NCBI RefSeq assembly: GCF_947623445.1 | Contig: NC_135248.1 | Span: 4,898,977-4,962,976, forward strand | DNA from: Clavelina lepadiformis | Lineage: Eukaryota > Chordata > Ascidiacea > Aplousobranchia > Clavelinidae | Direction: 5' to 3' | DNA: 64,000 nt | Notes under the pieces: model-generated | Told to the model about the DNA's origin: nothing | Databases searched by the model: none | Seen by the model: only the letters and a program-made list of their open reading frames with translations | In this document: piece by piece, positions 1,416 to 53,528 of the stretch | Layout of the letters: the number at the start of each line of letters is the position of its first letter | Position numbering within the stretch: the stretch's first letter is position 1 | Position numbers and translations under genes: made by a program

Positions 1416-1419
1416 TGTA

Positions 1420-1817: not shown

Positions 1818-1854
<37 letters not shown>

Positions 1855-9455: not shown

Positions 9456-9496
9456 TTAAAATTAATGTTGACATTAAAGACATTGACATTTACGTG

Positions 9497-11655: not shown

Positions 11656-11657
11656 TT

Positions 11658-11836
11658 AAAGCCACCATACCTGAAAGAATTAATTAAAATTTTTGTAAGT
11701 TACATTTGTGTATAGAATTTCATGATGTGTTTAATCCTGAGTCAACGCCACATATAAACGATCAGATTTTGAGTTCAAATATAATATAGGACAAACTATA
11801 ATAGTGCTTTAAAGGCAGCATTTGTTCTTTCAGTGT
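11658..11836. repeat. Inverted repeat segment 'a' (right copy)
   Basis: Reverse complement of 1-186. The order on this side is b, c, a, whereas a simple inversion of the left side would give c, b, a. Confidence 0.85.
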
Positions 11837-35330: not shown

Positions 35331-36328
35331 CTTAAAACTGACAGTCTCATAAACTTCAGCCATTTAGTCATAGCACAATAGAGAACATGCTCTCGCACAA
35401 TTAACGAAAAGGAAAAAGTGGTAAAACTCGAACTTTTACAAACATGCAAGATGACAACAATACAATTGTGCTACATAATATTAAGTTAGGATCAAGCTAA
35501 CAAGTTTGGACAAAATATACCACTATCATAAGCATGTTTATCGCTATCAACAAAATACTGAATGTTCAACTTGTCACGAGAATTATTTTTATATCCGTCA
35601 CGTTTTATTCGTTTTTATTCGCATTATCACCATCACGTTTTATACACCGTTTTATTTGCATCGTATTGTCTCTTCGTGCATGTTCACGTTCTGCTATATT
35701 TTACATGTTTATGTGTACACGTATTTTTTCACTAGTGACGTCTCGTCTCGCTACCCCGAGCGCTTAATTAGTATTCAGCGTCCCACGTTGATTCTTTGAT
35801 TACGTGGAATTTGTGTTTTGTGAGGTGTCGCGCTCGGCTGGGCGAGTGAAGGCAGTCTACGTTTGGTTTTAATAAAGGAAGACGTTTGTTTTTATCTAAG
35901 GAAGACTCGTAGAAATAAGACAGTCTGGCTAATTGACTAGCCGTTAAGCGGGGAGCTTACCTGGTAAACAAAGTTTGGTTACACAACTCACCAAACGTAC
36001 CAGAACAAGCTTTCACTCAACTCTGGAAATGTTGAACTGACCAAGCCAACGCACAAGTTCTTACAGCTGCGACCTTCTCTGCCACCGTCAAAATAAAATG
36101 ACCACGAGTTTCTGTATTTGTTTGTGACGTCACCTGGCATTCGGCGCGGGGCGCGTTGATTAAAGTTTGGCTTCCTTCCAAAATTATCCGCGTAAAAAGC
36201 TGAGAAGTAATTTTGAGCTTAAACCCGCAATCTATGATGTCTGTGGAAATGAAATGAAAATCAACCAAGTTGACGCAATAAACTTCAAAATACAAACATG
36301 GACGTAATTATTTTGTCGTACCGAAGGG
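35331..36328. other. No recognisable gene
   Basis: Open frames at 35,506-35,799 and 36,017-36,295 lack features of a known family. No RNA gene or transposon end was identified. Confidence 0.4.
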
Positions 36329-36540
36329 ACATTCTACTATCGGACTAAATAGCTTCTATAAACGTAAGTTTTGTATTTTTGTGTGTTTTTCTACTTCTTT
36401 TTTCTTTTCTTTTATATTGTTTGTCGTCGGTAGAGGCCGTCAAAGCAAATGCGATGGTAAATTTGTTTCAGGCACCCCGGGTATACATCAGTTGTACCTG
36501 AGGTGACATTTGGAAGATCCGAGGCGAATTATCGAATAGT
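36329..36540 (+). repeat. Dispersed repeat, copy 2
   Basis: Same orientation and word order as 26,571-26,830 but shorter and diverged. Between the two lie about 9.5 kb. Confidence 0.7.
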
Positions 36541-37027
36541 TTGAACAGGCTTGGCCCCTCTAACAGGTACTATGACACTTTATCGAAAGACACTTTATCG
36601 AACCACATTTTATCTTCTTCGAGGTAACGGAACCACAATCTCGTCTCACACTTTAAAACTTACTCACCTACGAATTTTTGTTCTTCTTTTTGAAGGCCGA
36701 AAGTAGACATCTATCATATATGTTGCTCAGGAAAATAAAACATAAACCATCTTGAAAGCAAAAAGGAGGTGGTGGCATCCACCATCAGTGCGTACTGAGT
36801 TGACCACCACCAGTTACTTCGTGCAAACACAACCGCTTGGTTAAAATGTGCCAAATGCGACACTCCAGGTCAATGTTTACTTGTTCTGCAACAACAGCAA
36901 CTGCTTTCTTTTTAAAGTAGACACTAACACCTATCTTTTTCAGAATAATTTTGTGAAATATTACTAAAACATGAAGTTTTAAGCAATACTTTGTATGTAG
37001 TTTCGAAACGTAAAGGAATTTTGCGCA

Positions 37028-37075
37028 ATAATAACTTTTGCGAAAGATCTATTATTTAGAATTATTAAAATATTT
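37028..37075. other. Truncated left end of the tRNA array
   Basis: The words 'aataataacttttgcgaaag' are array spacer normally found just before tRNA-Lys, but here they are followed after about 20 bp by 'aatatttcttagccgc', which normally follows the Lys segment. The Lys gene and its flank have been lost from this first, incomplete unit. Confidence 0.7.
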
Positions 37076-37136
37076 CTTAGCCGCCATTCAGCGTGATGGG
37101 ATGAAGAAATATTGACAACACGCACCGTAATTACAC

Positions 37137-37218
37137 TGGCAGTGGTAGGATTCGAACCCACGCCATCGAAATGACTGTTGCCTAAAACCAGCGCCTTAGA
37201 CCGCTCGGTCACGCTACC
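37137..37218 (-). tRNA. tRNA-Leu(UAG), chimeric first copy
   Basis: Loop TTTAGGC gives anticodon UAG. The 3' half is UAG-type, but the 5' acceptor (GGTAGCG) and flank ('ctatgttgctaagtaagc') are AAG-type, so it is a recombinant. One acceptor, one anticodon-stem and one T-stem mismatch suggest a pseudogene. Confidence 0.8.
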
Positions 37219-37578
37219 TATGTTGCTAAGTAAGCGATCGGAGTCTCGTTTTAACCTCCCTTCACCAGATCGGTCTTCGAGGGAACAAGTTTGATACAAA
37301 CAGAGTTTACGTGTAATTGTTGTTCCAAACCACTTTCAAATATCTTACACCATAATGGTTGTAACACAACATTTATAAAAGTTTCACAAGTTTGCGTTTC
37401 TACTGTCTCGCGTCATGTTTAACTTGCACGATTTGGGGTGTTTCCTAAATGTTCCAATTTAGTGTTTAGACTGACTCTCAGCAAGACCAATCAAGATTGA
37501 TTAACGCTCTGGAGATGAAATAATAACTTTTGCGAAAGATCTGGCTTACAGTTTTCTGTCAGAATACTGTAAAAGTCG

Positions 37579-37651
37579 CGCCCGATAAAGGATTTGAACC
37601 CTTGACCGTTGGATTAAAAGTCCAACGCTCTACCGACTGAGCTAACCGGGC
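37579..37651 (-). tRNA. tRNA-Lys(UUU), unit 1
   Basis: 73 nt with acceptor GCCCGGT pairing to ATCGGGC, anticodon loop CTTTTAA (UUU), T loop TTCAAAT, discriminator G. A TTTT pol III stop begins five bases past the end (37,574-37,571). One T-stem change gives a G-U pair. No intron. Confidence 0.95.
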
Positions 37652-38081
37652 TCCTCTTTTGTCAGATTACATCGGAAATGGGTGCTATCAAATTTGAATT
37701 TAAATATTAAGCTTGGAGGCTGATGCAACAAAATTCAAATTTAACAGGCACATTTGTGATAAGGCTGAATTAGGAAACAATTTCAAGTGTGAGGAGGTTG
37801 ATATTGTGTTACATAGTGTTGGTTGGTTTCATGTATTGTTTGATGAGAGGCGTCTACATTATATCCAACCGTTCAAGCCAGCGAAAGTGAAAACTTGATG
37901 TTGATTTACTCCAAATGATAGCTTGAAAATTTGTGTCAGTTTTACAACTTTAACTTTCTTCTCCAATACCATGCGAAAGCGATAGGTAAAGAAAGCCATC
38001 TTGGTGTGTAAAGAATATTTCTTAGCCGCTATTCAGCGCGATGGGATGAAGAAATAATGACAAGACGCACCGTAATTACAC

Positions 38082-38163
38082 TGGCAGTGGTGGGATTCGA
38101 ACCCACGCCATCGAAATGACTGTTGCCTAAAACCAGCGCCTTAGACCACTCGGCCACACTACC
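38082..38163 (-). tRNA. tRNA-Leu(UAG), unit 1
   Basis: 82 nt with long variable arm, acceptor GGTAGTG/CACTGCC, discriminator A, anticodon UAG. One mismatch in the anticodon stem (CTGGT with AACAG). Confidence 0.92.
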
Positions 38164-38316
38164 GCGTTTACAAGCGATTTGAAATCTTAATTGTATTTTC
38201 AGTACATCTTCAAACGTACGAAACACTAACAAGCGGCCATCTCATTGTCTTATTAAAGTAATGAAGACCACTCCATGATTGCGGAGTGAAGTTAAGCATA
38301 AAATTTGTAAATCCAA

Positions 38317-38398
38317 TGGCAGCGTTGGGATTCGAACCCACGCCATCGAAAAGACTGGTGCCTTAAACCAGCGCCTTAGACCGCTCGGCAACGCTACC
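38317..38398 (-). tRNA. tRNA-Leu(AAG), unit 1
   Basis: 82 nt, acceptor GGTAGCG/CGCTGCC, loop TTAAGGC giving anticodon AAG, long variable arm. The last T-stem pair is G-A in this copy. A TTTT run follows within about 20 bases. Confidence 0.93.
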
Positions 38399-38758
38399 TA
38401 TGTTGCTAAGTAAGCGATCGGAGTCTCGTTTTAACCTGCCTGCACCAGATCGGTCTTCGAGGGAACAAGTTTGATACAAAAAGAGTTTACGTGTAATTGT
38501 TGTTCCAAACCACTTTCAAATATCTTACACCATAATGTTTGTAACACAACATTTATAAAAGGTTCACAAGTTTGCGTTTCTACTGTCTCGCGTCATGTTT
38601 AACTTGCACGAATTAGTGTGTCTCCTAAATGTTCCAATTTAGTGTTTAGACTGACTCTCAACAAGACCAATCGAGATTGATTAACGCTCTGGAGATGAAA
38701 TAATAACTTTTGCGAAAGATCTGGCTTACAGTTTTCTGTCATAATACTGTAAAAGCCG

Positions 38759-38831
38759 CGCCCGATAAGGGATTTGAACCCTTGACCGTTGGATTAAAAG
38801 TCCAACGCTCTACCGACTGAGCTAACCGGGC
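38759..38831 (-). tRNA. tRNA-Lys(UUU), unit 2
   Basis: Matches the consensus Lys copy of the array exactly; nine of the thirteen copies share this sequence. Confidence 0.97.
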
Positions 38832-39261
38832 TCCTCTTTTGTTAGATTACAACGGAAATAGGTGCTATCAAATTTGAATTTAAATATTAAGCTTGGAGGC
38901 TGATGCAACAAAATTCAAATTTAACAGGCACATTTGTGATAAGGCTGAATTAGGAAACAATTTCAAGTGTGAAGAGGTTGATATTGTGTTACATAGTGTT
39001 GGTTGGTTTCATGTATTGTTTGATGAGAGTCGTCTACATTTTATCCAACCGTTCAAGCCAGCGAAAGTGAAAACTTGATGTTGATTTACTCCAAATGATA
39101 GCTTGAAAATTTGTGTCACTTTTACAACTTTAACTTTCTTCTACAATACCATGCGAAAGCGATAGGTAAAGAAAGCCATCTTGGTGTGTAAAGAATATTT
39201 CTTAGCCGCTATTCAGCGTGATGGGATGAAGAAATAATGACAAGACGCACCGTAATTACAC

Positions 39262-39343
39262 TGGAAGTGGTGGGATTCGAACCCACGTCATCGAAATGAC
39301 TGGTGCCTAAAACCAGCGCCTTAGACCACTCGACCACACTACC
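39262..39343 (-). tRNA. tRNA-Leu(UAG), unit 2
   Basis: Anticodon UAG. One acceptor mismatch on the 3' side (CACTTCC) and a D-stem G-U pair. Identical to the copy at 40,677. Confidence 0.9.
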
Positions 39344-39496
39344 GCGTTTACAAGCGATTTGAAATCTTAATTGTATTTTCAGTACATCTTCAAACGTACG
39401 AAAAACTAACAAGCGGCCATCTCATTGACTTATTAAAGTAATGAAGACCACTCCATGATTGCGGAGTGAAGTTAAGCATAAAATTTGTAAATCCAA

Positions 39497-39578
39497 TGGC
39501 AGCGTTGGGATTCGGACCCACGCCATCGAAATGACTGGTGCCTTAAAGCAGCGCCTTAGACCACTCGGCCACACTACC
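39497..39578 (-). tRNA. tRNA-Leu(AAG)/UAG-type chimera, extra copy
   Basis: Anticodon AAG and AAG-type 3' half, but the 5' acceptor (GGTAGTG) and upstream flank ('cgcgttaacaagcg') are of UAG type. This is the recombinant expected from exchange between the two Leu genes 235 bp apart. The anticodon stem has one mismatch and the T loop one change. Confidence 0.88.
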
Positions 39579-39731
39579 GCGTTAACAAGCGATTTGAAAT
39601 CTTAATTGTATTTTCAGTACATCTTCAAACGTACGAAACACTAACAAGCGGCCATCTCATTGACTTATTAAAGTAATGAAGACCACTCCATGATTGCGGA
39701 GTGAAGTTAAGCATAAAATTTGTAAATCCAA

Positions 39732-39813
39732 TGGCAGCGTTGGGATTCGAACCCACGCCATCGAAAAGACTGGTGCCTTAAACCAGCGCCTTAGACCGCT
39801 CGGCAACGCTACC
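39732..39813 (-). tRNA. tRNA-Leu(AAG), unit 2
   Basis: Same sequence as the unit 1 AAG copy, including the base-9 change in the D-arm junction. Confidence 0.93.
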
Positions 39814-40173
39814 TATGTTGCTAAGTAAGCGATCGGAGTCTCGTTTTAACCTGCCTGCACCAGATCGGTCTTCGAGGGAACAAGTTTGATACAAAAAGAG
39901 TTTACGTGTAATTGTTGTTCCAAACCACTTTCAAATATCTTACACCATAATGTTTGTAACACAACATTTATAAAAGGTTCACAAGTTTGCGTTTCTACTG
40001 TCTCGCGTCATGTTTAACTTGCACGAATTAGTGTGTCTCCTAAATGTTCCAATTTAGTGTTTAGACTGACTCTCAACAAGACCAATCGAGATTGATTAAC
40101 GCTCTGGAGATGAAATAATAACTTTTGCGAAAGATCTGGCTTACAGTTTTCTGTCATAATACTGTAAAAGCCG

Positions 40174-40246
40174 CGCCCGATAAGGGATTTGAACCCTTGA
40201 CCGTTGGATTAAAAGTCCAACGCTCTACCGACTGAGCTAACCGGGC
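40174..40246 (-). tRNA. tRNA-Lys(UUU), unit 3
   Basis: Consensus sequence. First gene of the second 1,415-bp unit, which duplicates the previous one. Confidence 0.97.
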
Positions 40247-40676
40247 TCCTCTTTTGTTAGATTACAACGGAAATAGGTGCTATCAAATTTGAATTTAAAT
40301 ATTAAGCTTGGAGGCTGATGCAACAAAATTCAAATTTAACAGGCACATTTGTGATAAGGCTGAATTAGGAAACAATTTCAAGTGTGAAGAGGTTGATATT
40401 GTGTTACATAGTGTTGGTTGGTTTCATGTATTGTTTGATGAGAGTCGTCTACATTTTATCCAACCGTTCAAGCCAGCGAAAGTGAAAACTTGATGTTGAT
40501 TTACTCCAAATGATAGCTTGAAAATTTGTGTCACTTTTACAACTTTAACTTTCTTCTACAATACCATGCGAAAGCGATAGGTAAAGAAAGCCATCTTGGT
40601 GTGTAAAGAATATTTCTTAGCCGCTATTCAGCGTGATGGGATGAAGAAATAATGACAAGACGCACCGTAATTACAC

Positions 40677-40758
40677 TGGAAGTGGTGGGATTCGAACCCA
40701 CGTCATCGAAATGACTGGTGCCTAAAACCAGCGCCTTAGACCACTCGACCACACTACC
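40677..40758 (-). tRNA. tRNA-Leu(UAG), unit 3
   Basis: Identical to 39,262-39,343, including the acceptor mismatch, as expected for a recent tandem duplication of the whole unit. Confidence 0.9.
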
Positions 40759-40911
40759 GCGTTTACAAGCGATTTGAAATCTTAATTGTATTTTCAGTAC
40801 ATCTTCAAACGTACGAAAAACTAACAAGCGGCCATCTCATTGACTTATTAAAGTAATGAAGACCACTCCATGATTGCGGAGTGAAGTTAAGCATAAAATT
40901 TGTAAATCCAA

Positions 40912-40993
40912 TGGCAGCGTTGGGATTCGGACCCACGCCATCGAAATGACTGGTGCCTTAAAGCAGCGCCTTAGACCACTCGGCCACACTACC
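40912..40993 (-). tRNA. tRNA-Leu(AAG)/UAG-type chimera, second copy
   Basis: Identical to the chimera at 39,497-39,578. Confidence 0.88.
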
Positions 40994-41146
40994 GCGTTAA
41001 CAAGCGATTTGAAATCTTAATTGTATTTTCAGTACATCTTCAAACGTACGAAACACTAACAAGCGGCCATCTCATTGACTTATTAAAGTAATGAAGACCA
41101 CTCCATGATTGCGGAGTGAAGTTAAGCATAAAATTTGTAAATCCAA

Positions 41147-41228
41147 TGGCAGCGTTGGGATTCGAACCCACGCCATCGAAATGACTGGTGCCTTAAACCA
41201 GCGCCTTAGACCGATCGGCCAAGCTACC
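41147..41228 (-). tRNA. tRNA-Leu(AAG), unit 3
   Basis: Anticodon AAG. Acceptor base 7 is T instead of G (GGTAGCT), leaving a mismatch. Same variant as 46,317. Confidence 0.88.
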
Positions 41229-41588
41229 TATGTTGCTAAGTAAGCGATCGGAGTCTCGTTTTAACCTCCCTGCACCAGATCGGTCTTCGAGGGAACAAGT
41301 TTGATACAAAAAGAGTTTACTTGTAATTGTTGTTCCAAACCACTTTCAAATATCTTACACCATAATGTTTGTAACACAACATTTATAAAAGTTTCACAAG
41401 TTTGCGTTTCTACTGTCTCGCGTCATGTTTAACTTGCACGAATTGGGGTGTCTCCTAAATGTTCCAATTTAGTGTTTAGACTGACTCTCAACAAGACCAA
41501 TCGAGATTGATTAACGCTCTGGAGTTGAAATAATAACTTTTGCAAAAGATCTGGCTTACAGTTTTCTGTCAGAATACTGTAAACGCCG

Positions 41589-41661
41589 CGCCCGATAAGG
41601 GATTTGAACCCTTGACCGTTGGATTAAAAGTCCAACGCTCTACCGACTGAGCTAACCGGGC
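41589..41661 (-). tRNA. tRNA-Lys(UUU), unit 4
   Basis: Consensus tRNA, but the downstream T run is cut to TTT by a substitution ('gtaaacg'), so termination may be weaker than in the other units. Confidence 0.95.
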
Positions 41662-42091
41662 TCCTCTTTTGTTAGATTACATCGGAAATGGGTGCTATCA
41701 AATTTGAATTTAAATATTAAGCTTGGAGGCTGATGCAACAAAAGTCAATTTTAACAGGCACATTTGTGATAAGGCTGAATTAGGAAACAATTTCAAGTGT
41801 GAAGAGGTTGATATTGTGTTACATAGTGTTGGTTGGTTTCATGTATTGTTTCATGAGAGGCGTCTACATTTTATCCAACCGTTCAAGCCAGCGAAAGTGA
41901 AAACTTGATGTTGATTTACTCCAAATGATAGCTTGAAAATTTGTGTCAGTTTTACAACTTTAACTTTCTTCTCCAATACCATGCGAAAGCGATAGGTAAA
42001 GTAAGCCATCTTGGTGTGTAAAGAATATTTCTTAGCCGCTATTCAGCGCGATGGGATGAAGAAATATTGACAAGACGCACCGTAATTACAC

Positions 42092-42173
42092 TGGCAGTGG
42101 TGGGACTTGAACCCACGCCATCGAAATGACTGGTGCCTAAAACCAGTGCCTTATACCACTCGGCCACACTACC
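42092..42173 (-). tRNA. tRNA-Leu(UAG), unit 4
   Basis: Anticodon UAG. Changes in the T loop (TTCAAGT) and D loop. Stems otherwise pair. Confidence 0.9.
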
Positions 42174-42326
42174 GCGTTTACAAGCGATTTGAAATCTTAA
42201 TTACATTTTCAGTACATCTTCAAACGTACGAAACACTAACAAGCGGCCATCTCATTGACTTATTAAAGTAATGAAGACCACTCCATGATTGCGGAGTGAA
42301 GTTAAGCATAAAATTTGTAAATCCAA

Positions 42327-42408
42327 TGGCAGCGGTGGGATACGAACCCACGTCATTGAAAAGACTGGTGCCTTAAACCAGCGCCTTAGACCGCTCGGCC
42401 ACGCTACC
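42327..42408 (-). tRNA. tRNA-Leu(AAG), unit 4
   Basis: Anticodon AAG. All T-stem pairs are kept, the T loop is altered (TTCGTAT), and the variable arm has one change. Confidence 0.91.
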
Positions 42409-42768
42409 TATGTTGCTAAGTAAGCGATCGGAGTCTCGTTTTAACCTCCCTGCACCAGATCGGTCTTCGAGGGAACAAGTTTGATACAAACAGAGTTTAC
42501 GTGTAATTGTTGTTCCAAACCACTTTCAAATATCTTACACCATAATGGTTGTAACACAACATTTATAAAAGTTTCACAACGTTGCGTTTCTACTCTCTCG
42601 CGTCATGTTTAACTTGCACGATTTGGGGTGTCTCCTAAATGTTCCAATTTAGTGTTTAGACTGACTCTCAACAAGACCAATCGAGATTGATTAACGCTCT
42701 GGAGATGAAATAATAACTTTTGCGAAAGATCTGGCTTACAGTTTTCTGTCAGAATACTGTAAAAGCCG

Positions 42769-42841
42769 CGCCCGATAAGGGATTTGAACCCTTGACCGTT
42801 GGATTAAAAGTCCAACGCTCTACCGACTGAGCTAACCGGGC
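42769..42841 (-). tRNA. tRNA-Lys(UUU), unit 5
   Basis: Consensus sequence with TTTT terminator. Confidence 0.97.
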
Positions 42842-43272
42842 TCCTATTTTGTTAGATTACATCGGAAATGGATGCTATCAAATTTGAATTTAAATATTAA
42901 GCTTGGAGGCTGATGCAACAAAATTCAAATTTAACAGGCACATTTGTGATAAGCCTGAATTAGGAAACAATTTCAAGTGTGAAGAGGTTGATATTGTGTT
43001 ACATAGTGTTGGCTGGTTTCATGCATTGTTTGATGAGAGGCGTCTACATTTTATCCAACCGTTCAAGCCAGCGAAAGTGAAAACTTGATGTTGATTTACT
43101 CCAAATGATAGCTTGAAAATTTGTGTCACTTTTACAACTTTAACTTTCTTCTCCAATACCATGCGAAAGCGATAGGTAAAGAAAGCCATCTTTGGCGTGT
43201 AAAGAATAATTCTTAGCCGCTATTCAGCGCGATGGGATGAAGAAATTTTGACAAGACGCACCGTAATTACAC

Positions 43273-43354
43273 TGGCAGTGGTGGGATTCGAACCCACGCC
43301 ATCGAAATGACTGGTGCATAAAACCAGCGCCTTAGACCACTCGGCCACACTACC
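43273..43354 (-). tRNA. tRNA-Leu body with UAU anticodon, unit 5
   Basis: Stem sequences, variable arm and discriminator A are those of tRNA-Leu(UAG), but the anticodon loop reads TTTATGC instead of TTTAGGC. The third anticodon base is changed, giving UAU, which pairs with the Ile codon AUA. All stems still pair. If expressed and charged by leucyl-tRNA synthetase it would put Leu at AUA codons. It may equally be an inert array copy. Confidence 0.85.
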
Positions 43355-43507
43355 GCGTTTACAAGCGATTTGAAATCTTAATTCCATTTTCAGTACATCT
43401 TCAAACGTACGAAACACTAACAAGCGGCCATCTCATTGATTTATTAAAGTAATGAAGACCACTCCATGATTGCAGAGTGAAGTTAAGCATAAAATTTGTA
43501 AATCCAA

Positions 43508-43589
43508 TGGCAGCGGTGGGATTCGAACCAACGCCATCGAAATGACTGGTGCCTTAAACCAGCGCCTTAGAACGATCAGCCACGCTACC
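43508..43589 (-). tRNA. tRNA-Leu(AAG), unit 5
   Basis: Anticodon AAG. One T-stem mismatch and three D-arm changes, so functionality is uncertain. Confidence 0.8.
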
Positions 43590-43948
43590 TATGTCGCTCA
43601 GTAAGCGATCGGAGTCTCGTTTTAACCTCCCTGCACCAGATCGGTCTTCGAGGGAACAAGTTTGATAAAAAAGAGTTTACGTGTAATTGTTGTTCCAAAC
43701 CACTTTCAAATATCTTACACCATAATGGTTGTAACACAACATTTATAAAAGTTTCACAAGTTTGCGTTTCTACTCTCTCGCGTCATGTTTAACTTGCACG
43801 ATTTGGGGTGTCTCCTAAATGTTCCAATTTAGTGTTTAGACTGACTCTGAACAAGACCAATCGAGATTGATTAACGCTCTGGAGATGAAATAATAACTTT
43901 TGCGAAAGATCTGGCTTACAGTTTTCTGTCAGAATACTGTAAAAGCCG

Positions 43949-44021
43949 CGCCCGATAAGGGATTTAAACCCTTGACCGTTGGATTAAAAGTTCAACGCTC
44001 TACCGACTGAGCTAACCGGGC
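43949..44021 (-). tRNA. tRNA-Lys(UUU), unit 6, variant
   Basis: Anticodon UUU. One anticodon-stem mismatch and a T-loop change (TTTAAAT, which also alters the B box). Probably impaired. Confidence 0.82.
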
Positions 44022-44452
44022 TCCTCTTTTGTTAGATTACATCGGAAATGGGTGCTATCAAATTTGAATTTAAATATTAAGCTTGGAAGCTGATGCAACA
44101 AAATTCAAATTTAACAGGCACATTTGTGATAAGCCTGAATTAGGAAACAATTTCAAGTGTGAAGAGGTTGATATTGTGTTACATAGTGTTGGTTGGTTTC
44201 ATGCATTGTTTGATGAGAGGCGTCTACATTTTATCCAACCGTTCAAGCCAGCGAAAGTGAAAACTTGATGTTGATTTACTCCAAATGATAGCTTGAAAAT
44301 TTGTGTCACTTTTACAACTTTAACTTTCTTCTCCAATACCATGCGAAAGCGTTAGGTAAAGAAAGCCATCTTTGGTGTGTAAAGAATAATTCTTAGCCGC
44401 TATTCAGCGCGATGGGATGAAGAAATTTTGACAAGACGCACCGTAATTACAC

Positions 44453-44534
44453 TGGCAGTGTTAGGATTCGAACCCACGCCATCGAAATGACTGGTGCCTA
44501 AAACCAGCGCCTTAGACCACTCGGCCACACTACC
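44453..44534 (-). tRNA. tRNA-Leu(UAG), unit 6
   Basis: Anticodon UAG. Two T-stem positions are altered (GTGGG with CCTAA). The acceptor stem is intact. Confidence 0.86.
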
Positions 44535-44687
44535 GCGTTTACAAGCGATTTGAAATCTTAATTACATTTCCAGTACATCTTCAAACGTACGAAACAATAA
44601 CAAGCTGCCATCTCATTGACTTATTAAAGTAATGAAGACCACTCCATGATTGCGGAGTGAAGTTAAGCATAAAATTTGTAAATCGAA

Positions 44688-44769
44688 TGGCAGCGTTGGG
44701 ATTCGAACCCACGCCATCGAAATGACTGGTGCCTTAAACCAGCGCCTTACACCGCTCGGCCACGCTACC
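44688..44769 (-). tRNA. tRNA-Leu(AAG), unit 6
   Basis: Anticodon AAG with one D-loop change. The last T-stem pair is G-A. Confidence 0.92.
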
Positions 44770-45127
44770 TATGTTGCTAAGTAAGCGATCGGAGTCTCGT
44801 TTTAACCTCCCTTCACCAGATCGGTCTTCGAGGGAACAAGTTTGATAAAAAAGAGTTTACGTGTAATTGTTGTTCCAAACCACTTTCAAATATCTTACAC
44901 CATAATGGTTGTAACACAACATTTATAAAGTTTCACAAGTTTGCGTTTCTACTGTCTCGCGTCATGTTTAACTTGCACGATTTGGGGTGTCTCCTAAATG
45001 TTCCAATTTAGTGTTTAGACTGACTCTCAACAAGACCAATCGAGATTGATTAACGCTCTGGAGATGAAATAATAACTTTTGCGAAAGATCTGGCTTACAG
45101 TTTTCTGTCAGTATACTGTAAAAGCCG

Positions 45128-45200
45128 CGCCCGATAAGGGATTTGAACCCTTGACCGTTGGATTAAAAGTCCAACGCTCTACCGACTGAGCTAACCGGGT
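45128..45200 (-). tRNA. tRNA-Lys(UUU), unit 7
   Basis: Consensus except that the first base is A rather than G, breaking the first acceptor pair. Confidence 0.9.
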
Positions 45201-45630
45201 TCCTCTTTTGTTAGATTACATCGGAAATGGGTGCTATCAAATTTGAATTTAAATATTAAGCTTGGAGGCTGATGCAACAAAATTCAAATTTAACAGGCAC
45301 ATTTGTGATAAGGCTGAATTAGGAAACAATTTCAAGTGTGAAGAGGTTGATATTGTGTTACATAGTGTTGGTTGGTTTCATGTATTGTTTGATGAGAGGC
45401 GTCTACGTTTTATCCAACCGTTCAAGCCAGCGAAAGTGAAAACTTGATGTTGATTTACTCCAAATGATAGCTTGAAAATTTGTGTCAATTTTACAACTTT
45501 AACTTTCTACTCCAACACCATGCGAAAGCGATAGGTAAAGAAAGCCATCTTGGTGTGTAAAGAATATTTCTTAGCCGCTATTCAGCGCGATGGGATGAAG
45601 AAATATTGACAAGACGCACCGTAAATACAC

Positions 45631-46163
45631 TGGCAGTGGTGGGATTCGAACCCACGTCATCCAAATGACTGGTGTCTAAAACCATCGCCTTAGACCAGGG
45701 CTTCCCAAACTTTTTTGCTCGCGACCCCTTTCAAACTTCTTAAGTTTTCCGCGACCCTTCACGTTTAAATTGATTAGCAGTGCGAAATATACCTTTGTCA
45801 TTAGTGACATTTATTGATATGCAAAGACTGAATTCAAGCAACCAGTACTCAAAGCCTACTTACTACTTTACACATATGTAGGCCACTGGAAACAAAAAAA
45901 GCACACACATTTATTCAGTGTGATTGGTGCGACTGCTTTCTGCTACAAAGCAAGTCCAGCCGTGGCTCAACATCTGCTAATGCTGGTCTCAAGGCGGTTT
46001 TAATGTTGATTAGGCGGGAATGATATTTTGTTTTGATTGTATTTTGTACTTCGTGTAAAATTGGTATACGCTCTGCGACCCCTGACTTTCGTTACGCGAC
46101 CCCTTGCGGGGTCGCGACCCCCAGTTTGGGAAGCCCTGCCTTAGACCACTCGGCCACACTACC
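45631..46163 (-). pseudogene. tRNA-Leu(UAG), unit 7, split by a hAT-type element
   Basis: The tRNA's 3' part lies at 45,631-45,695 and its 5' part at 46,139-46,163. Between them sits a 443-bp element, with the eight bases CCTTAGAC (D-loop region) duplicated on both sides. The anticodon stem also carries a mismatch. The gene cannot make a normal tRNA. Confidence 0.96.
45696..46138 (+). mobile_element. hAT-type non-autonomous transposon, 443 bp, inside a tRNA-Leu gene
   Basis: Terminal inverted repeats CAGGGCTTCCCAAAC and GTTTGGGAAGCCCTG with repeated GCGACCCC words inside each end, typical of hAT (Charlie-like) elements. Perfect 8-bp target duplication CCTTAGAC at 45,688-45,695 and 46,139-46,146. 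There is no transposase frame. Since the flanking duplication is still perfect and no other unit carries it, the insertion is recent and came after the array formed. Confidence 0.97.
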
Positions 46164-46316
46164 GCGTTTACAAGCGATTTGAAATCTTAATTCCATTTTC
46201 AGTACATCTTCAAACGTACGAAACACTAACAAGCGGCCATCTCATTGACTTATTAAAGTAATGAAGACCACTCCATGATTGCGGAGTGAAGTTAAGCATA
46301 AAATTTGTAAATCCAA

Positions 46317-46398
46317 TGGCAGCGTTGGGATTCGAACCCACGCCATCGAAATGACTGGTGCCTTAAACCAGCGCCTTAGACCGATCGGCCAAGCTACC
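46317..46398 (-). tRNA. tRNA-Leu(AAG), unit 7
   Basis: Anticodon AAG. Same acceptor base-7 mismatch variant as 41,147. Confidence 0.88.
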
Positions 46399-46758
46399 TA
46401 TGTTGCTAAGTAAGCGATCGGAGTCTCGTTTTAACCTCCCTGCACCAGATCGGTTTTCGAGGGAACAAGTTTGATACAAAAAGAGTTTACTTGTAATTGT
46501 TGTTCCAAACCACTTTCAAATATCTTACACCATAATGTTTGTAACACAACATTTATAAAAGTTTCACAAGTTTGCGTTTCTACTGTCTCGCGTCATGTTT
46601 AACTTGCACGATTTGGGGTGTCTCCTAAATGTTCTAATTTAGTGTTTAGACTGACTCTCAACAAGACTAATCGAGATTGATTAACGCTCTGGAGATGAAA
46701 TAATAACTTTTGCGAAAGATCTGGCTTACAGTTTTCTGTCAGAATACTGTAAAAGCCG

Positions 46759-46831
46759 CTCCCGATATAGGATTTGAACCCTTGACCGTTGGATTAAAAG
46801 TCCAATGCTCTACCGACTGAGCTAATCGGGC
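46759..46831 (-). tRNA. tRNA-Lys(UUU), unit 8, degenerate
   Basis: Anticodon UUU kept. Changes at several acceptor, anticodon-stem and T-stem positions (3' end TCGGGAG) make it the most altered Lys copy and a likely pseudogene. Confidence 0.75.
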
Positions 46832-47261
46832 TCCTCTTTTGTTAGATTACATCGGAAATGGGTGCTATCAAATTTGAATTTAAATATTAAGCTTGGAGGC
46901 TGATGCAACAAAATTCAAATTTAACAGGCACATTTGTGATAAGGCTGAATTAGGAAACAATTTCAAGTGTGAAGAGGTTGACATTGTGTTACATAGTGTT
47001 GGTTGGTTTCATGTATTGTTTGATGAGAGGCGTCTACATTTTATCCAACCGTTCAAGCCAGCAAAAGTGAAAACTTGATGTTGATTTACTCCAAATGATA
47101 GCTTGAAAATTTGTGTCACTTTTACAACTTTAACTTTCTTCTCCAATACCATGGGAAAGCGATAGGTAAAGAAAGCCATCTTGGTGTGTAAAGAATATTT
47201 CTTAGCCGCTATACAGCGCGATGGGATGAAAAAATATTGACAAGACGCACCGTAATTACAC

Positions 47262-47343
47262 TGGCAGTGGTGGGATTCGAACCCACGTCATCGAAATTAC
47301 TGGTGCCTAAAACCAGCGCCTTAGACCACTCGGCCACACTACC
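47262..47343 (-). tRNA. tRNA-Leu(UAG) with AAG-type upstream flank, unit 8
   Basis: UAG-type tRNA with all stems paired, followed on its 5' side by the flank that normally belongs to the AAG gene ('tatgtcgctcagtaagcg'). The separate AAG gene is missing from this 944-bp unit. This is the reciprocal deletion product of the exchange that made the 1,415-bp units. Confidence 0.92.
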
Positions 47344-47702
47344 TATGTCGCTCAGTAAGCGATCGGAGTTTCGTTTTAACTTCCCTGCACCAGATCGGTC
47401 TTCGAGGGAACAAGTTCGATAAAAAAGAGTTTACGTGTAATTGTTGTTCCAAACCACTTTCAAATATCTTACACCATAATGGTTGTAACACAACATTTAT
47501 AAAAGTTTCACAACGTTGCGTTTCTACTCTCTCGCGTCATGTTTAACTTGCACGATTTGGGGTGTCTCCTAAATGTTCCAATTTAGTGTTTAGACTGACT
47601 CTCAACAAGACCAATCGAGATTGATTAACGCTCTGGAGATGAAATAATAACTTTTGCGAAAGATCTGGCTTACAGTTTTCTGTCAGAATACTGTAAAAGC
47701 CG

Positions 47703-47775
47703 CGCCCGATAAGGGATTTGAACCCTTGACCGTTGGATTAAAAGTCCAACGCTCTACCGACTGAGCTAACCGGGC
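47703..47775 (-). tRNA. tRNA-Lys(UUU), unit 9
   Basis: Consensus sequence with TTTT terminator. Confidence 0.97.
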
Positions 47776-48205
47776 TCCTCTTTTGTTAGATTACATCGGA
47801 AATGGGTGCTATCAAATTTGAATTTAAATATTAAGCTTGGAAGCTGATGCAAAAAAATTCAAATTTAACAGGCACATTTGTGATAAGCCTGAATTAGGAA
47901 ACAATTTCAAGTGTGAAGAGGTTGATATTGTGTTACATAGTGTTGGTTGGTTTCATGTATTGTTTGATGAGAGGCGTCTACATTTTATCCAACCGTTCAA
48001 GCCAGCGAAAGTGAAAACTTGATGTTGATTTACTCCAAATGATAGCTTGAAAATTTGTGTCACTTTTACAACTTTAACTTTCTTCTCCAATACCATGCGA
48101 AAGCGATAGGTAACGAAAGCCATCTTGGTGTGTAAAGAATATTTCTTAGCCGCTATTCAGCGCGATGGGATGAAGAAATTATGACAAGACGCACCGTAAT
48201 TACAC

Positions 48206-48287
48206 TGGCAGTGGTGGGATTCGAACCCACGTCATCGAAATGACTGGTGCCTAAAACCAGCGCCTTCGACCACTCGGCCACACTACC
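48206..48287 (-). tRNA. tRNA-Leu(UAG), unit 9
   Basis: Anticodon UAG with a D-loop substitution and one variable-arm change. All stems pair. Confidence 0.92.
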
Positions 48288-48440
48288 GCGTTTACAAGCG
48301 ATTTGAAATCTTAATTCCATTTTCAGTACATCTTCAAACGTACGAAACACTAACAAGCGGCCATCTCATTGATTTATTAAAGTAATGAAGACCACTCCAT
48401 GATTGCGGAGTGAAGTTAAGCATAAAATTTGTAAATCCAA

Positions 48441-48522
48441 TGGCAGCGGTGGGATTCGAACCAACGCCATCGAAATGACTGGTGCCTTAAACCAGCGCCT
48501 TAGACCGCTCGGCCACGCTACC
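48441..48522 (-). tRNA. tRNA-Leu(AAG), unit 9
   Basis: Anticodon AAG with one T-stem mismatch (GTTGG with CCCAC). Confidence 0.88.
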
Positions 48523-48881
48523 TATGTTGCTAAGTAAGCGATCGGAGTCTCGTTTTAACCTCCATGCACCAGATCGGTCTTCGAGGGAACAAGTTTGATA
48601 AAAAAGAGTTTACGTGTAATTGTTGTTCCAAACCACATTCAAATATCTTACACCATAATGGTTGTAACACAACATTTATAAAAGTTTCACAACTTTGCGT
48701 TTCTACTCTCTCGCGTCATGTATAACTTGCACGATTTGGGGTGTCTCCTAAATGTTCCAATTTAGTGTTTAGACTGACTCTCAACAAGACCAATCGAGAT
48801 TGATTAACGCTCTGGAGATGAAATAATAACTTTTGCGAATAATCTGGCTTACAGTTTTCTGTCAGAATACTGTAAAAGCCG

Positions 48882-48954
48882 CGCCCGATAAGGGATTTGA
48901 ACCCTTGACCGTTGGATTAAAAGTCCAACGCTCTACCGACTGAGCTAACCGGGC
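48882..48954 (-). tRNA. tRNA-Lys(UUU), unit 10
   Basis: Consensus sequence. First gene of a two-unit block repeated at 51,239. Confidence 0.97.
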
Positions 48955-49384
48955 TCCTCTTTTATTAGATTACATCGGAAATGGGTGCTATCAAATTTGA
49001 ATTTAAATATTAAGCTTGGAGGCTGATGCAACAAAATTCAAATTTAACAGGCACATTTGTGATAAGGCTGAATTAGGAAACAATTTCAAGTGTGAAGAAG
49101 TTGATATTGTGTTACATAGTGTTGGTTGGTTTCATGTATTGTTTCGTGAGAGGCGTCTACATTTTATCCAACCGTTCAAGCCAGCGAAAGTGAAAACTTG
49201 ATGTTGATTTACTCCAAATGATAGCTTGAAAATTTGTGTCAGTTTTACAACTTTAACTTTCTTCTCCAATACCATGCGAAAGCGATAGGTAACGAAAGCC
49301 ATCTTGGTGTGTAAAGAATATTTCTTAGCCGCTATTCAGCGCGATGGGATGAAGAAATATTGACAAGACGCACCGTAATTACAC

Positions 49385-49466
49385 AGGCAGTGGTGGGATT
49401 CGAACCCACGCCATCGAAATAACTGGTGCCTAAAACCAGCGCCTTAGACCACTCGGCCACACTACC
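49385..49466 (-). tRNA. tRNA-Leu(UAG) with altered discriminator, unit 10
   Basis: Anticodon UAG and stems intact, but base 73 is T instead of A. A73 is a main leucyl-tRNA synthetase identity base in eukaryotes, so charging is expected to be poor. Confidence 0.88.
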
Positions 49467-49619
49467 GCGTTTACAAGCGATTTGAAATCTTAATTACATT
49501 TTCAGTACATCTTCAAACGTACGAAACACTAACAAGCGGCCATCTCATTGATTTATTAAAGTAATGAAGACCACTCCATGATTGCGGAGTGAAGTTAAGC
49601 ATAAAATTTGTAAAACCAA

Positions 49620-49701
49620 TGGCAGCGGTGGGATTCGAACCCACGCCATCGAAATGACTGGTGCCTTAAACCAGCGCCTTACACCGCTCGGCCACGCTAC
49701 C
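49620..49701 (-). tRNA. tRNA-Leu(AAG), unit 10
   Basis: Anticodon AAG with every stem paired. One D-loop change shared with 51,977. Confidence 0.94.
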
Positions 49702-50059
49702 TATGTTGCTAAGTAAGCGATCGGAGTCTCGTTTTAACCTCCATGCACCAGATCGGTCTTCGAGGGAACAAGTTTGATAAAAAATAGTTTACGTGTAATT
49801 GTTGTTCCAAACCACTTTCAAATATCTTACACCATAATGGTTGTAACACAACATTTATAAAGTTTCACAAGTTTGCGTTTCTACTGTCTCGCGTCATGTT
49901 TAACTTGCACGATTTGGGGTGTCTCCTAAATGTTCCAATTTAGTGTTTAGACTGACTCTGAACAAGACCAATCGAGATTGATTAACGCTCTGGAGATGAA
50001 ATAATAACTTTTGCGAAAGATCTGGCTTACAGTTTTCTGTCAGAATACTGTAAAAGCCG

Positions 50060-50132
50060 CGCCCGATAAGGGATTTGAACCCTTGACCGTTGGATTAAAA
50101 GTCCAACGCTCTACCGACTGAGCTAACCGGGC
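50060..50132 (-). tRNA. tRNA-Lys(UUU), unit 11
   Basis: Consensus sequence with TTTT terminator. Confidence 0.97.
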
Positions 50133-50562
50133 TCCTCTTTTGTTAGATTACATCGGAAATGGGTGCTATCAAATTTGAATTTAAATATTAAGCTTGGAGG
50201 TTGATGCAACAAAATTCAAATTTAACAGGCACATTTGTGATAAGGCTGAATTAGGAAACAATTTCAAGTGTGAAGAGGTTGATATTGTGTTACATAGTGT
50301 TGGTTGGTTTCATGTATTGTTTGATGAGAGGCGTCTACATTTTATCCAACCATTCAAGCCAGCGAAAGTGAAAACTTGATGTTGATTTACTCCAAATGAT
50401 AGCTTGAAAATTTGTGTCACTTTTACAAATTTAACTTTCTTCTCCAATACAATGCGAAAGCGATAGGTAACGAAAGCCATCTTGGTGTGTAAAGAATATT
50501 TCTTAGCCGCTATTCAGCGCGATGGGATGAAGAAATATTGACAAGACGCACCGTAATTACAC

Positions 50563-50644
50563 TGGCAGTGGTGGGATTCGAACCCCCGTCATCGAAATGA
50601 CTGGTGCCTAAAACCAGCGCCTTAGACCACTCGGCCACACTACC
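50563..50644 (-). tRNA. tRNA-Leu(UAG), unit 11
   Basis: Anticodon UAG with one T-stem mismatch (GGGGG with CCCAC). Same as 52,920. Confidence 0.88.
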
Positions 50645-50797
50645 GCGTTTACAAGCGATTTGAAATCTTAATTCCATTTTCAGTACATCTTCAAACGTAC
50701 GAAACACTAACAAGCGGCCATCTCATTGATTTATTAAAGTAATGAAGACCACTCCATGATTGCGGAGTGAAGTTAAGCATAAAATTTGTAAATCCAA

Positions 50798-50879
50798 TCG
50801 CAGCGGTGGGATTCGAACCAACGCCATCGAAATGACTGGTGCCTTAAACCAGCGCCTTAGACCGATCGGCCAAGCTACC
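50798..50879 (-). tRNA. tRNA-Leu(AAG), unit 11, degenerate
   Basis: Anticodon AAG. Mismatches at the first and last acceptor pairs and in the T stem; a likely pseudogene. Confidence 0.78.
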
Positions 50880-51238
50880 TATTTTGCTAAGTAAGCGATC
50901 GGAGTCTCGTTTTAACCTCCATGCACCAGATCGGTCTTCGAGGGAACAAGTTTGATAAAAAAGAGTTTACGTGTAATTGTTGTTCCAAACCACTTTCAAA
51001 TATCTTACACCATAATGGTTGTAACACAACATTTATAAAAGTTTCACAAGTTTGCGTTTCTACTCTCTCGCGTCATGTATAACTTGCACGATTTGGGGTG
51101 TCTCCTAAATGTTCCAATTTAGTGTTTAGACTGACTCTCAACAAGACCAATCGAGATTGATTAACGCTCTGGAGATGAAATAATAACTTTTGCGAAAGAT
51201 CTGGCTTACAGTTTTCTGTCAGAATACTGTAAAAGCCG

Positions 51239-51311
51239 CGCCCGATAAGGGATTTGAACCCTTGACCGTTGGATTAAAAGTCCAACGCTCTACCGACTGA
51301 GCTAACCGGGC
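51239..51311 (-). tRNA. tRNA-Lys(UUU), unit 12
   Basis: Consensus sequence. Start of the second copy of the two-unit block. Confidence 0.97.
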
Positions 51312-51741
51312 TCCTCTTTTATTAGATTACATCGGAAATGGGTGCTATCAAATTTGAATTTAAATATTAAGCTTGGAGGCTGATGCAACAAAATTCAAAT
51401 TTAACAGGCACATTTGTGATAAGGCTGAATTAGGAAACAATTTCAAGTGTGAAGAAGTTGATATTGTGTTACATAGTGTTGGTTGGTTTCATGTATTGTT
51501 TCGTGAGAGGCGTCTACATTTTATCCAACCGTTCAAGCCAGCGAAAGTGAAAACTTGATGTTGATTTACTCCAAATGATAGCTTGAAAATTTGTGTCACT
51601 TTTACAACTTTAACTTTCTTCTCCAATACCATGCGAAAGCGATAGGTAACGAAAGCCATCTTGGTGTGTAAAGAATATTTCTTAGCCGCTATTCAGCGCG
51701 ATGGGATGAAGAAATATTGACAAGACGCACCGTAATTACAC

Positions 51742-51823
51742 AGGCAGTGATGGGATTCGAACCCACGCCATCGAAATAACTGGTGCCTAAAACCAGCGCC
51801 TTAGACCACTCGGCCACACTACC
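51742..51823 (-). tRNA. tRNA-Leu(UAG) with altered discriminator, unit 12
   Basis: Carries the same base-73 change as 49,385 plus a G-U pair at the end of the T stem. Confidence 0.87.
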
Positions 51824-51976
51824 GCGTTTACAAGCGATTTGAAATCTTAATTACATTTTCAGTACATCTTCAAACGTACGAAACACTAACAAGCGGCCAT
51901 CTCATTGATTTATTAAAGTAATGAAGACCACTCCATGATTGCGGAGTGAAGTTAAGCATAAAATTTGTAAAACCAA

Positions 51977-52058
51977 TGGCAGCGGTGGGATTCGAACCCA
52001 CGCCATCGAAATGACTGGTGCCTTAAACCAGCGCCTTACACCGCTCGGCCACGCTACC
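51977..52058 (-). tRNA. tRNA-Leu(AAG), unit 12
   Basis: Same sequence as 49,620, all stems paired. Confidence 0.94.
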
Positions 52059-52416
52059 TATGTTGCTAAGTAAGCGATCGGAGTCTCGTTTTAACCTCCA
52101 TGCACCAGATCGGTCTTCGAGGGAACAAGTTTGATAAAAAATAGTTTACGTGTAATTGTTGTTCCAAACCACTTTCAAATATCTTACACCATAATGGTTG
52201 TAACACAACATTTATAAAGTTTCACAAGTTTGCGTTTCTACTGTCTCGCGTCATGTTTAACTTGCACGATTTGGGGTGTCTCCTAAATGTTCCAATTTAG
52301 TGTTTAGACTGACTCTGAACAAGACCAATCGAGATTGATTAACGCTCTGGAGATGAAATAATAACTTTTGCGAAAGATCTGGCTTACAGTTTTCTGTCAG
52401 AATACTGTAAAAGCCG

Positions 52417-52489
52417 CGCCCGATAAGGGATTTGAACCCTTGACCGTTGGATTAAAAGTCCAACGCTCTACCGACTGAGCTAACCGGGC
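52417..52489 (-). tRNA. tRNA-Lys(UUU), unit 13
   Basis: Consensus sequence and the last Lys gene of the array. Confidence 0.97.
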
Positions 52490-52919
52490 TCCTCTTTTGT
52501 TAGATTACATCGGAAATGGGTGCTATCAAATTTGAATTTAAATATTAAGCTTGGAGGCTGATGCAACAAAATTCAAATTTAACAGGCACATTTGTGATAA
52601 GGCTGAATTAGGAAACAATTTCAAGTGTGAAGAGGTTGATATTGTGTTACATAGTGTTGGTTGGTTTCATGTATTGTTTGATGAGAGGCGTCTACATTTT
52701 ATCCAACCATTCAAGCCAGCGAAAGTGAAAACTTGATGTTGATTTACTCCAAATGATAGCTTGAAAATTTGTGTCACTTTTACAACTTTAACTTTCTTCT
52801 CCAATACAATGCGAAAGCGATAGGTAAAGAAAGCCATCTTGGTGTGTAAAGAATATTTCTTAGCCGCTATTCAGCGCGATGGGATGAAGAAATATTGACA
52901 AGACGCACCGTAATTACAC

Positions 52920-53001
52920 TGGCAGTGGTGGGATTCGAACCCCCGTCATCGAAATGACTGGTGCCTAAAACCAGCGCCTTAGACCACTCGGCCACACTAC
53001 C
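52920..53001 (-). tRNA. tRNA-Leu(UAG), unit 13
   Basis: Same sequence as 50,563, including the T-stem mismatch. Confidence 0.88.
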
Positions 53002-53154
53002 GCGTTTACAAGCGATTTGAAATCTTAATTCCATTTTCAGTACATCTTCAAACGTACGAAACACTAACAAGCGGCCATCTCATTGATTTATTAAAGTAAT
53101 GAAGACCACTCCATGATTGCGGAGTGAAGTTAAGCATAAAATTTGTAAATCCAA

Positions 53155-53236
53155 TCGCAGCGGTGGGATTCGAACCCACGCCATCGAAATGACTGGTGCC
53201 TTAAACCAGCGCCTTACACCGCTCGGCCACGCTACC
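53155..53236 (-). tRNA. tRNA-Leu(AAG), last copy
   Basis: Anticodon AAG. The first acceptor pair is broken (3' end GCTGCGA). About 290 bp further the array sequence stops at 53,528. Confidence 0.86.
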
Positions 53237-53528
53237 TATGTTGCTAAGTTAGCGATCGGAGTCTCGTTTTAACCTCCCTGCACCAGATCGGTCTTCGAGG
53301 GAACAAGTTTGATAAAAAAGAGTTTACGTGTAATTGTTGTTCCAAACCACTTTCAAATATCTTACACCATAATGGTTGTAACACAACATTTATAAAAGTT
53401 TCACAAGTTTGCGTTTCTACTGTCTCGCGTCATGTTTAACTTGCACGATTTAGGGTGTCTCCTAAATGTTCCAATTTAGTGTTTAGACTGACTCTGAACA
53501 AGACCAATCGAGATTGATTAACGCTCTG

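Follow-up and report, generated by a model that had tools for sequence, protein, structure and literature searches.

A tandem array of nuclear Leu-AAG/Leu-UAG/Lys-UUU tRNA gene cassettes on chromosome 9 of the tunicate Clavelina lepadiformis

Chromosome 9 of the tunicate Clavelina lepadiformis (C9; other assembled sequences are labelled likewise) carries a tandem array of nuclear transfer RNA (tRNA) genes, in which a cassette of Leu-AAG, Leu-UAG and Lys-UUU is repeated over 261 kb (C9:4,936,045-5,197,093). The array begins in the window, a stretch of 64,000 nucleotides at 4.90-4.96 Mb, which we read together with the adjoining 240 kb. It is probably comparable to ribosomal DNA (rDNA), a redundant, putative tRNA supply that unequal exchange maintains. 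When one unit was aligned to the region by BLAST, three blocks were resolved: block 1 in the window (37069-45697 and 46138-53528), block 2 (154575-176452; positions beyond the window continue its numbering) and block 3 (191037-297484), the array end being closed by an inverted bit at 297730-298117. An isolated 97-bp unit fragment lies at 56174 in the window. Block 1 accounts for roughly a tenth of it; a 101-kb gap separates this block from the rest of the array, which lies beyond the window end. A sequence-only reading of the window had set the limits at 37076 and 53528, right to within 7 bases. The units are arranged regularly head to tail, each with tRNA genes and similar spacers, and nearly all genes lie on the same strand. 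ARAGORN predicted 369 tRNA genes over the whole array stretch, and counting alignments with overlaps removed gave 369 complete gene copies and 7 partial pieces; 113 unit matches exceed 1000 bp, including 103 longer than 1100 bp.

In transcription order, the unit consists of Leu-AAG, 153 nt, Leu-UAG, 430 nt, Lys-UUU and 359 nt (modal spacers), amounting to 1180 bp. Variant units are either shortened (Lys and Leu-UAG without Leu-AAG) or extended (Leu-UAG with two Leu-AAG). The window block comprises some twelve kilobase-sized units, most of which match the consensus at 96-97% identity, so that chance is not an issue. ARAGORN found 40 tRNA genes in it (37137-53236), every one on the minus strand: 14 Leu-AAG, 12 Leu-TAG, 13 Lys-TTT and one Leu-TAG copy called Ile-TAT (Table 1). 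Rfam placed 39 of the 40 above its gathering score, the copy at 50798 not being among them, with 59.5-75.9 bits for the 13 Lys genes and 33.2-61.7 bits for 26 Leu genes. Tandem Repeats Finder listed only 235-bp Leu duplications in the window array. These data confirm the one-strand, three-tRNA tandem cassette of the sequence-only reading, and its count of 41 genes or pseudogenes is reached by adding a Leu-TAG gene split by a miniature inverted-repeat transposable element (MITE). The insertion, read by eye, is ~440 bp long (~45697-46138), has terminal inverted repeats starting CAGGGCTTCCCAAAC and an 8-bp target duplication CCTTAGAC, and is presumably hAT-like.

Comparison of units with one another revealed the pattern of concerted evolution. 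Units of the same block differ on average by 0.025 (block 1), 0.025 (block 2) and 0.028 (block 3), and those of different blocks by 0.035-0.043. In block 3, which has 77 full units, divergence increases with distance, being 0.018 at lag 1 and 0.032 at lag 40, apart from a drop to 0.019 at lag 8; the nearest relative lies 8 units off in 14/77 cases and 1 unit off in 13/77, and 11 unit pairs are identical. Neighbouring units are thus more alike than distant ones, and the lag pattern, including the dip, is that expected if unequal exchange involves one unit at a time as well as stretches of 8 units. This supports the earlier suggestion of rDNA-like amplification and homogenisation, for which the sequence-only reading had named dosage in a high-demand tissue, or drift, as possible causes. 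Self-BLAST further showed that the left flank of block 1 has a 97.2%-identical copy at 153531-154574, directly before block 2. Blocks 1 and 2 therefore start after the same flank, indicating that the array edge itself was copied by segmental duplication.

In the consensus of each of the three genes, the four stems examined (the variable arm lay outside the check) are free of broken pairs, the conserved bases of T loop, GG and anticodon are kept, and the sequence forms a canonical cloverleaf with A and B boxes. Single copies were called defect-free if they had no broken stem pair, none of eight key bases hit, an unchanged anticodon and no indel; these criteria are our own and stricter than those of a tRNA finder, and a mismatch is no proof of a dead gene. 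Gene types in these and the following variant counts were set by unit position, so that one window Leu-TAG gene was counted as Leu-AAG. Across the array, 237 of 369 copies (64%) were defect-free and 132 carried a defect. By type (Leu-AAG, Leu-UAG and Lys, respectively), the defect-free share was 60/95, 54/89 and 72/90 in block 3, 15/19, 10/18 and 9/18 in block 2, and 2/15, 5/12 and 10/13 in block 1. Block 1, with 17/40 copies defect-free and a stem, key-base or anticodon change in 23/40 complete copies, holds the worst Leu genes of the array. The sequence-only reading was to fall if most copies proved to be pseudogenes; most window Leu copies do look damaged, whereas the array-wide majority does not. 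Downstream of the genes, a run of four T residues (T4) begins after 3 nt in 111/119 Lys copies and after 13 nt in 108/119 Leu-AAG copies.

Variants in the genes were then set against those in the spacers. Overlaps between alignments were removed for the counts of distinct variants and of frequencies, whereas some overlapping alignments were counted twice in the variable-site, identical-window, harmful-share and block-3-only tests; because copies share ancestry and are not independent, the p values are guides. Gene variants are kept rare, with 4/129 above 10% frequency against 53/401 spacer variants (Fisher p = 5e-4) and a mean frequency of 0.025 against 0.049. When the gene annotation was shifted circularly (n=1179), 2 shifts were as low in mean frequency and 19 as low in the share above 10%. 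The rank test of variant frequency in block 3 alone gave p = 0.006. Copies identical to the consensus account for 38-45% in the genes, compared with a mean of 30% for 82-nt spacer windows.

Several observations weigh against a maintained gene supply. The genes' share of identical copies is equalled or exceeded by 18-35% of spacer windows, the frequency signal over the whole array reaches only p = 0.04 by rank test, and in block 3 alone the share above 10% is 7/72 in genes and 49/269 in spacers (Fisher p = 0.11). Gene columns hold 129 distinct variants where spacer rates, matched for base and CpG context, predict 115; the two Leu genes lie above expectation (53 vs 40.6 and 46 vs 39.4) and Lys below it (30 vs 35.3). 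We considered transcription-raised mutation as the cause of the slight excess in the Leu genes. Uncorrected, variable sites number 106/238 in genes and 333/942 in spacers (p = 0.01). The function-critical share of variants, 28/50, 27/51 and 18/30 in the three genes, compares with 0.50, 0.51 and 0.56 by chance. With a harmful share at chance level and variants at least as numerous as in the spacers, nothing points to a protection of individual copies. None of the window Leu genes matches the array consensus (0/15 and 0/12), and 115/125 Leu-UAG copies lack a T4 run within 60 nt, the first T4 of the Leu-UAG consensus lying at +152. The picture suggested by these patterns is that of a redundant family in which single copies would be unprotected, with some filtering of which variants spread.

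Exact pattern matches fell largely within the array: 84/87 for Leu-AAG, 88/90 for Leu-UAG and 87/97 for Lys-UUU. Outside it lie three Leu-AAG matches (two on C6, one on C4), two Leu-UAG and 10 Lys-UUU (7 on C2, 2 on C4, 1 on C9). The array consensus of Leu-AAG equals all three outside Leu-AAG genes over 82 nt. Lys genes inside and outside the array form distinct classes by base 59, which is A in 119/121 array copies in register (the remaining two, shifted by one base, read likewise) and G in 12/12 distinct Lys-type genes read outside, a set that includes one gene with a changed anticodon and leaves out 3 of the 10 exact matches, all on C2. The C2 Lys-UUU genes read likewise belong to tandem units, which are ~1.9 kb long and carry genes in both orientations. 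Most of the outside genes read have runs of five to eight T residues (T5-T8) close by, except loci L033 and L040, which have T4 only. What these outside genes have in common with the array is the gene and not the spacer; the exception is L040, a diverged cassette piece near C9:4,817,688, ~118 kb before the array, which is 73% identical over 343 bp including spacer and is perhaps a relic of the founder. Given head-to-tail units in one region and spacers unshared by the outside genes read, we rejected an origin by chance or as a tRNA-derived short interspersed nuclear element. A whole-genome search with the full unit returned two C6 Leu-AAG gene matches and missed the array itself, so further cassette copies are possible.

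To place the array among other tRNA genes, we used eight anticodon patterns, a chosen set rather than the full tRNA complement, and found a regular tandem array for 8/8. Initiator Met has 35/36 matches within C9:3.80-3.96 Mb, in ~684-bp units in which a His-GTG gene follows after 7 nt. Seven Met-initiator/His-GTG pairs read at C9:3944000-3948500 have no terminator between the genes; to judge from this arrangement, the two tRNAs are likely made as a dicistronic transcript. Lys-CTT has 62/70 matches within C4:20.67-20.79 Mb, at ~1710-bp spacing. Just 7/16 Gly-GCC matches lie in an array (C7:10.28-10.29 Mb) and the other 9 elsewhere; its ~1408-bp units also contain Glu-TTC and Ile-AAT, and in a partly masked stretch (C7:10277600-10280900) Glu-TTC and Gly-GCC are 6 nt apart. 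Asp-GTC has 230 exact genome matches, and among the 100 listed 99 are on C9 from 10.89 Mb onward, where the array (10.89-11.05 Mb and beyond) has a spacing of often ~171 bp and blocks in both orientations. Among the 100 listed of 101 Val-AAC matches, 39 are on C1, 51 on C6 and 10 on C17 and C60, two unplaced contigs on which they lie 3619 bp apart; the assembly thus does not place all tRNA arrays.

We propose that unequal exchange, together with segmental duplication, multiplied one ancestral Leu-AAG/Leu-UAG/Lys-UUU cassette to >100 units, and that the same exchange would keep units locally similar. Given their canonical sequence, the genes may each be transcribed separately by RNA polymerase III from A and B boxes of their own, and the copies would jointly supply redundant Leu and Lys tRNA. 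With so many copies, single ones could decay almost freely while turnover re-spreads intact cassettes, and copies at the edge, among them the window block's Leu genes, may escape turnover and decay. The array would then be one case of a wider habit, the other tRNAs searched being arrayed as well. It is unlikely, by comparison, that the array is a mostly silent satellite whose tRNA genes are carried by a drift-expanded repeat while dispersed genes do the work. Such a satellite would agree with the chance rate at which new variants strike function-critical bases, with the 132 defective copies, with array terminators that are T4 or, for Leu-UAG, missing within 60 nt where outside genes mostly have T5-T8, and with the separate classes of Lys genes. 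It fits poorly with a consensus and 64% of copies that are still canonical despite 2-4% divergence, with the lower frequency of variants in genes than in spacers, and with the few exact Leu matches outside (3 Leu-AAG, 2 Leu-UAG), although more diverged genes could escape the pattern.

A broader proposal, which we offer only tentatively, is that most nuclear tRNA genes have moved into cassette arrays and that the big arrays form a class apart from the few dispersed genes, in a Xenopus-like system of two sets, the arrayed one for egg or bud and the dispersed one for everyday use. A59 against G59 in Lys genes and weak or missing against mostly strong oligo-T terminators are what such a system would look like, and the base-59 difference means that ordinary tRNA sequencing can separate array transcripts from others. 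We consider it very improbable that the array serves chromatin structure, with TFIIIC-bound B boxes as a boundary or replication-pausing element and tRNA output secondary. Dense tRNA genes on one strand would suit this role, which has a precedent in the human 1q23.3 tRNA repeat with CTCF, for which it was proposed (PMC4041453). Yet no spacer segment stands out as protected (the variable-site share is 0.17-0.57 across all 30-nt windows), and unlike the CpG-rich human repeat, the unit has a CpG observed/expected ratio of 1.08 against 1.03 in the flank. An over-expanded or chimeric assembly is hardly credible: the regularly spaced Val-AAC genes on unplaced contigs do show that arrays are hard for assembly, but HiFi coverage of 117x and a quality value (QV) of 67.4, reported for the assembly (PMC10884593), argue against an artefact, as do many individually distinct units with MITE, long interspersed nuclear element (LINE) and long terminal repeat (LTR) insertions. 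The true number of units could be larger. The genome sequence analysed, 209.06 Mb in 95 contigs, is slightly shorter than the published 210.1 Mb in 102 scaffolds and yielded no COX1 match, so it has probably been trimmed. The rDNA-like tRNA supply kept by unequal exchange remains the reading we favour.

The LINE separates blocks 2 and 3 (176453-191036 in continued window numbering; C9:5,075,429-5,090,012), has endonuclease and reverse transcriptase frames and contains a nested LTR retrotransposon, all recognised by eye. Its insertion site is the spacer between Leu-AAG and Leu-UAG, and it shows a poly-A tail and a ~12-bp duplication. We rejected a site-specific LINE, since the array holds just this one and a single case says nothing about targeting. 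The surroundings of the array are rich in segmental duplications: window positions 1-15337 recur at 66073-81334 (95%), and a stretch containing a weak multicopper-oxidase-like exon is present in two mutually inverted copies (93%), at 13282-15078 and 61836-63624. Pfam analysis of 10 open reading frames (ORFs) in the window gave Cu-oxidase_3 below cut-off in 3, a weak helix-turn-helix in 1 and nothing in 6, and a PDB search with one of the 10 gave no match. Between blocks 1 and 2, an open frame at 128749-129750 (C9:5,027,725-5,028,726) is one we take to be intelectin-like; a reading frame 3 kb past the array end resembles animal gamma-tubulin.

Table 1 Features of array block 1 and its left edge, in window coordinates.
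Feature	Position	Strand	Evidence
Block 1 of Leu-AAG/Leu-UAG/Lys-UUU array, unit ~1180 bp, MITE-interrupted	37069..53528	-	BLAST of one unit, ARAGORN, Rfam
Left flank at array edge, repeated before block 2	35984..37026	.	self-BLAST
MITE, presumably hAT-like, inside Leu-TAG gene (broken 41st gene)	45697..46138	.	sequence and junctions read by eye
tRNA-Leu (TAG), in Leu-AAG position of its unit	37137..37218	-	ARAGORN
tRNA-Lys (TTT)	37578..37651	-	ARAGORN
tRNA-Leu (TAG)	38082..38163	-	ARAGORN
tRNA-Leu (AAG)	38317..38398	-	ARAGORN
tRNA-Lys (TTT), 75.9 bits	38758..38831	-	ARAGORN, Rfam
tRNA-Leu (TAG)	39262..39343	-	ARAGORN
tRNA-Leu (AAG), Leu-TAG/Leu-AAG hybrid copy, 33.2 bits	39497..39578	-	ARAGORN, Rfam
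tRNA-Leu (AAG)	39732..39813	-	ARAGORN
tRNA-Lys (TTT)	40173..40246	-	ARAGORN
tRNA-Leu (TAG)	40677..40758	-	ARAGORN
tRNA-Leu (AAG), hybrid copy, 33.2 bits	40912..40993	-	ARAGORN, Rfam
tRNA-Leu (AAG)	41147..41228	-	ARAGORN
tRNA-Lys (TTT)	41588..41661	-	ARAGORN
tRNA-Leu (TAG)	42092..42173	-	ARAGORN
tRNA-Leu (AAG)	42327..42408	-	ARAGORN
tRNA-Lys (TTT)	42768..42841	-	ARAGORN
Leu-TAG copy, anticodon loop altered (Ile-TAT per ARAGORN)	43273..43354	-	ARAGORN
tRNA-Leu (AAG)	43508..43589	-	ARAGORN
tRNA-Lys (TTT)	43948..44021	-	ARAGORN
tRNA-Leu (TAG)	44453..44534	-	ARAGORN
tRNA-Leu (AAG)	44688..44769	-	ARAGORN
tRNA-Lys (TTT)	45127..45200	-	ARAGORN
tRNA-Leu (AAG)	46317..46398	-	ARAGORN
tRNA-Lys (TTT)	46758..46831	-	ARAGORN
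tRNA-Leu (TAG)	47262..47343	-	ARAGORN
tRNA-Lys (TTT)	47702..47775	-	ARAGORN
tRNA-Leu (TAG)	48206..48287	-	ARAGORN
tRNA-Leu (AAG)	48441..48522	-	ARAGORN
tRNA-Lys (TTT)	48881..48954	-	ARAGORN
tRNA-Leu (TAG)	49385..49466	-	ARAGORN
tRNA-Leu (AAG)	49620..49701	-	ARAGORN
tRNA-Lys (TTT)	50059..50132	-	ARAGORN
tRNA-Leu (TAG)	50563..50644	-	ARAGORN
tRNA-Leu (AAG), not among Rfam matches above gathering score	50798..50879	-	ARAGORN
tRNA-Lys (TTT)	51238..51311	-	ARAGORN
tRNA-Leu (TAG)	51742..51823	-	ARAGORN
tRNA-Leu (AAG)	51977..52058	-	ARAGORN
tRNA-Lys (TTT)	52416..52489	-	ARAGORN
tRNA-Leu (TAG)	52920..53001	-	ARAGORN
tRNA-Leu (AAG)	53155..53236	-	ARAGORN

Tandem tRNA arrays are a known kind of locus, of which the tunicate member appears to be new. 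We found no published tunicate tRNA array in the literature, the search being incomplete and most subscription papers lying outside it. Didemnum vexillum is a tunicate of the same order as Clavelina. Its genome was reported to hold 1464 tRNAs and 3849 pseudogenes, with Lys-TTT raised, and the parts of the paper examined do not mention arrays (PMC5006418). Bermudez-Santana et al. described large tRNA clusters as having arisen independently in many eukaryotes, with 89% of tRNA loci clustered in Nematostella and 87% in stickleback (PMC2888827). Tandem arrays have been called unusual outside Entamoeba (PMC11067881), and the animal cases include Hydractinia, Nematostella, Xenopus and one human locus. 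Hydractinia, a cnidarian with tandem arrays of non-coding RNA genes across its genome, has them for all 20 amino acids (PMC11067881), whereas here a chordate was examined for 8 anticodons, and for tRNA only. Like Clavelina, Entamoeba has tandem cassettes of one to several tRNA genes and few dispersed genes, and concerted evolution has been invoked for them; in E. histolytica, however, the 25 array units occupy >10% of the genome and some include 5S genes, and E. histolytica and E. dispar have short tandem repeats between genes where the window array has only its 235-bp Leu duplications (PMC2652664).

The human 1q23.3 variable number tandem repeat is also built of a multi-tRNA unit, with units ~98% identical and variable in number; its unit is 7.3 kb long, CpG-rich and CTCF-binding, with five genes on both strands and 9-43 units (PMC4041453), whereas that of Clavelina is 1.18 kb long with three genes on one strand and no CpG excess. 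As a compact-genome chordate with an array for 8/8 tRNAs tested, Clavelina is a tractable place to ask why such arrays arise, and its array suggests how a family of genes could keep working collectively even though individual members degenerate in the manner of spacers. Xenopus, too, is a chordate with tandem tRNA gene arrays. The older Xenopus cassette has 8 genes in 3.18 kb, with a gene content unlike that of the Clavelina array. The Xenopus arrays are reported to be oocyte-specific and switched on at zygotic genome activation; the only Xenopus-like feature seen in the Clavelina array is the sequence distinction between A59 in array Lys genes and G59 outside.

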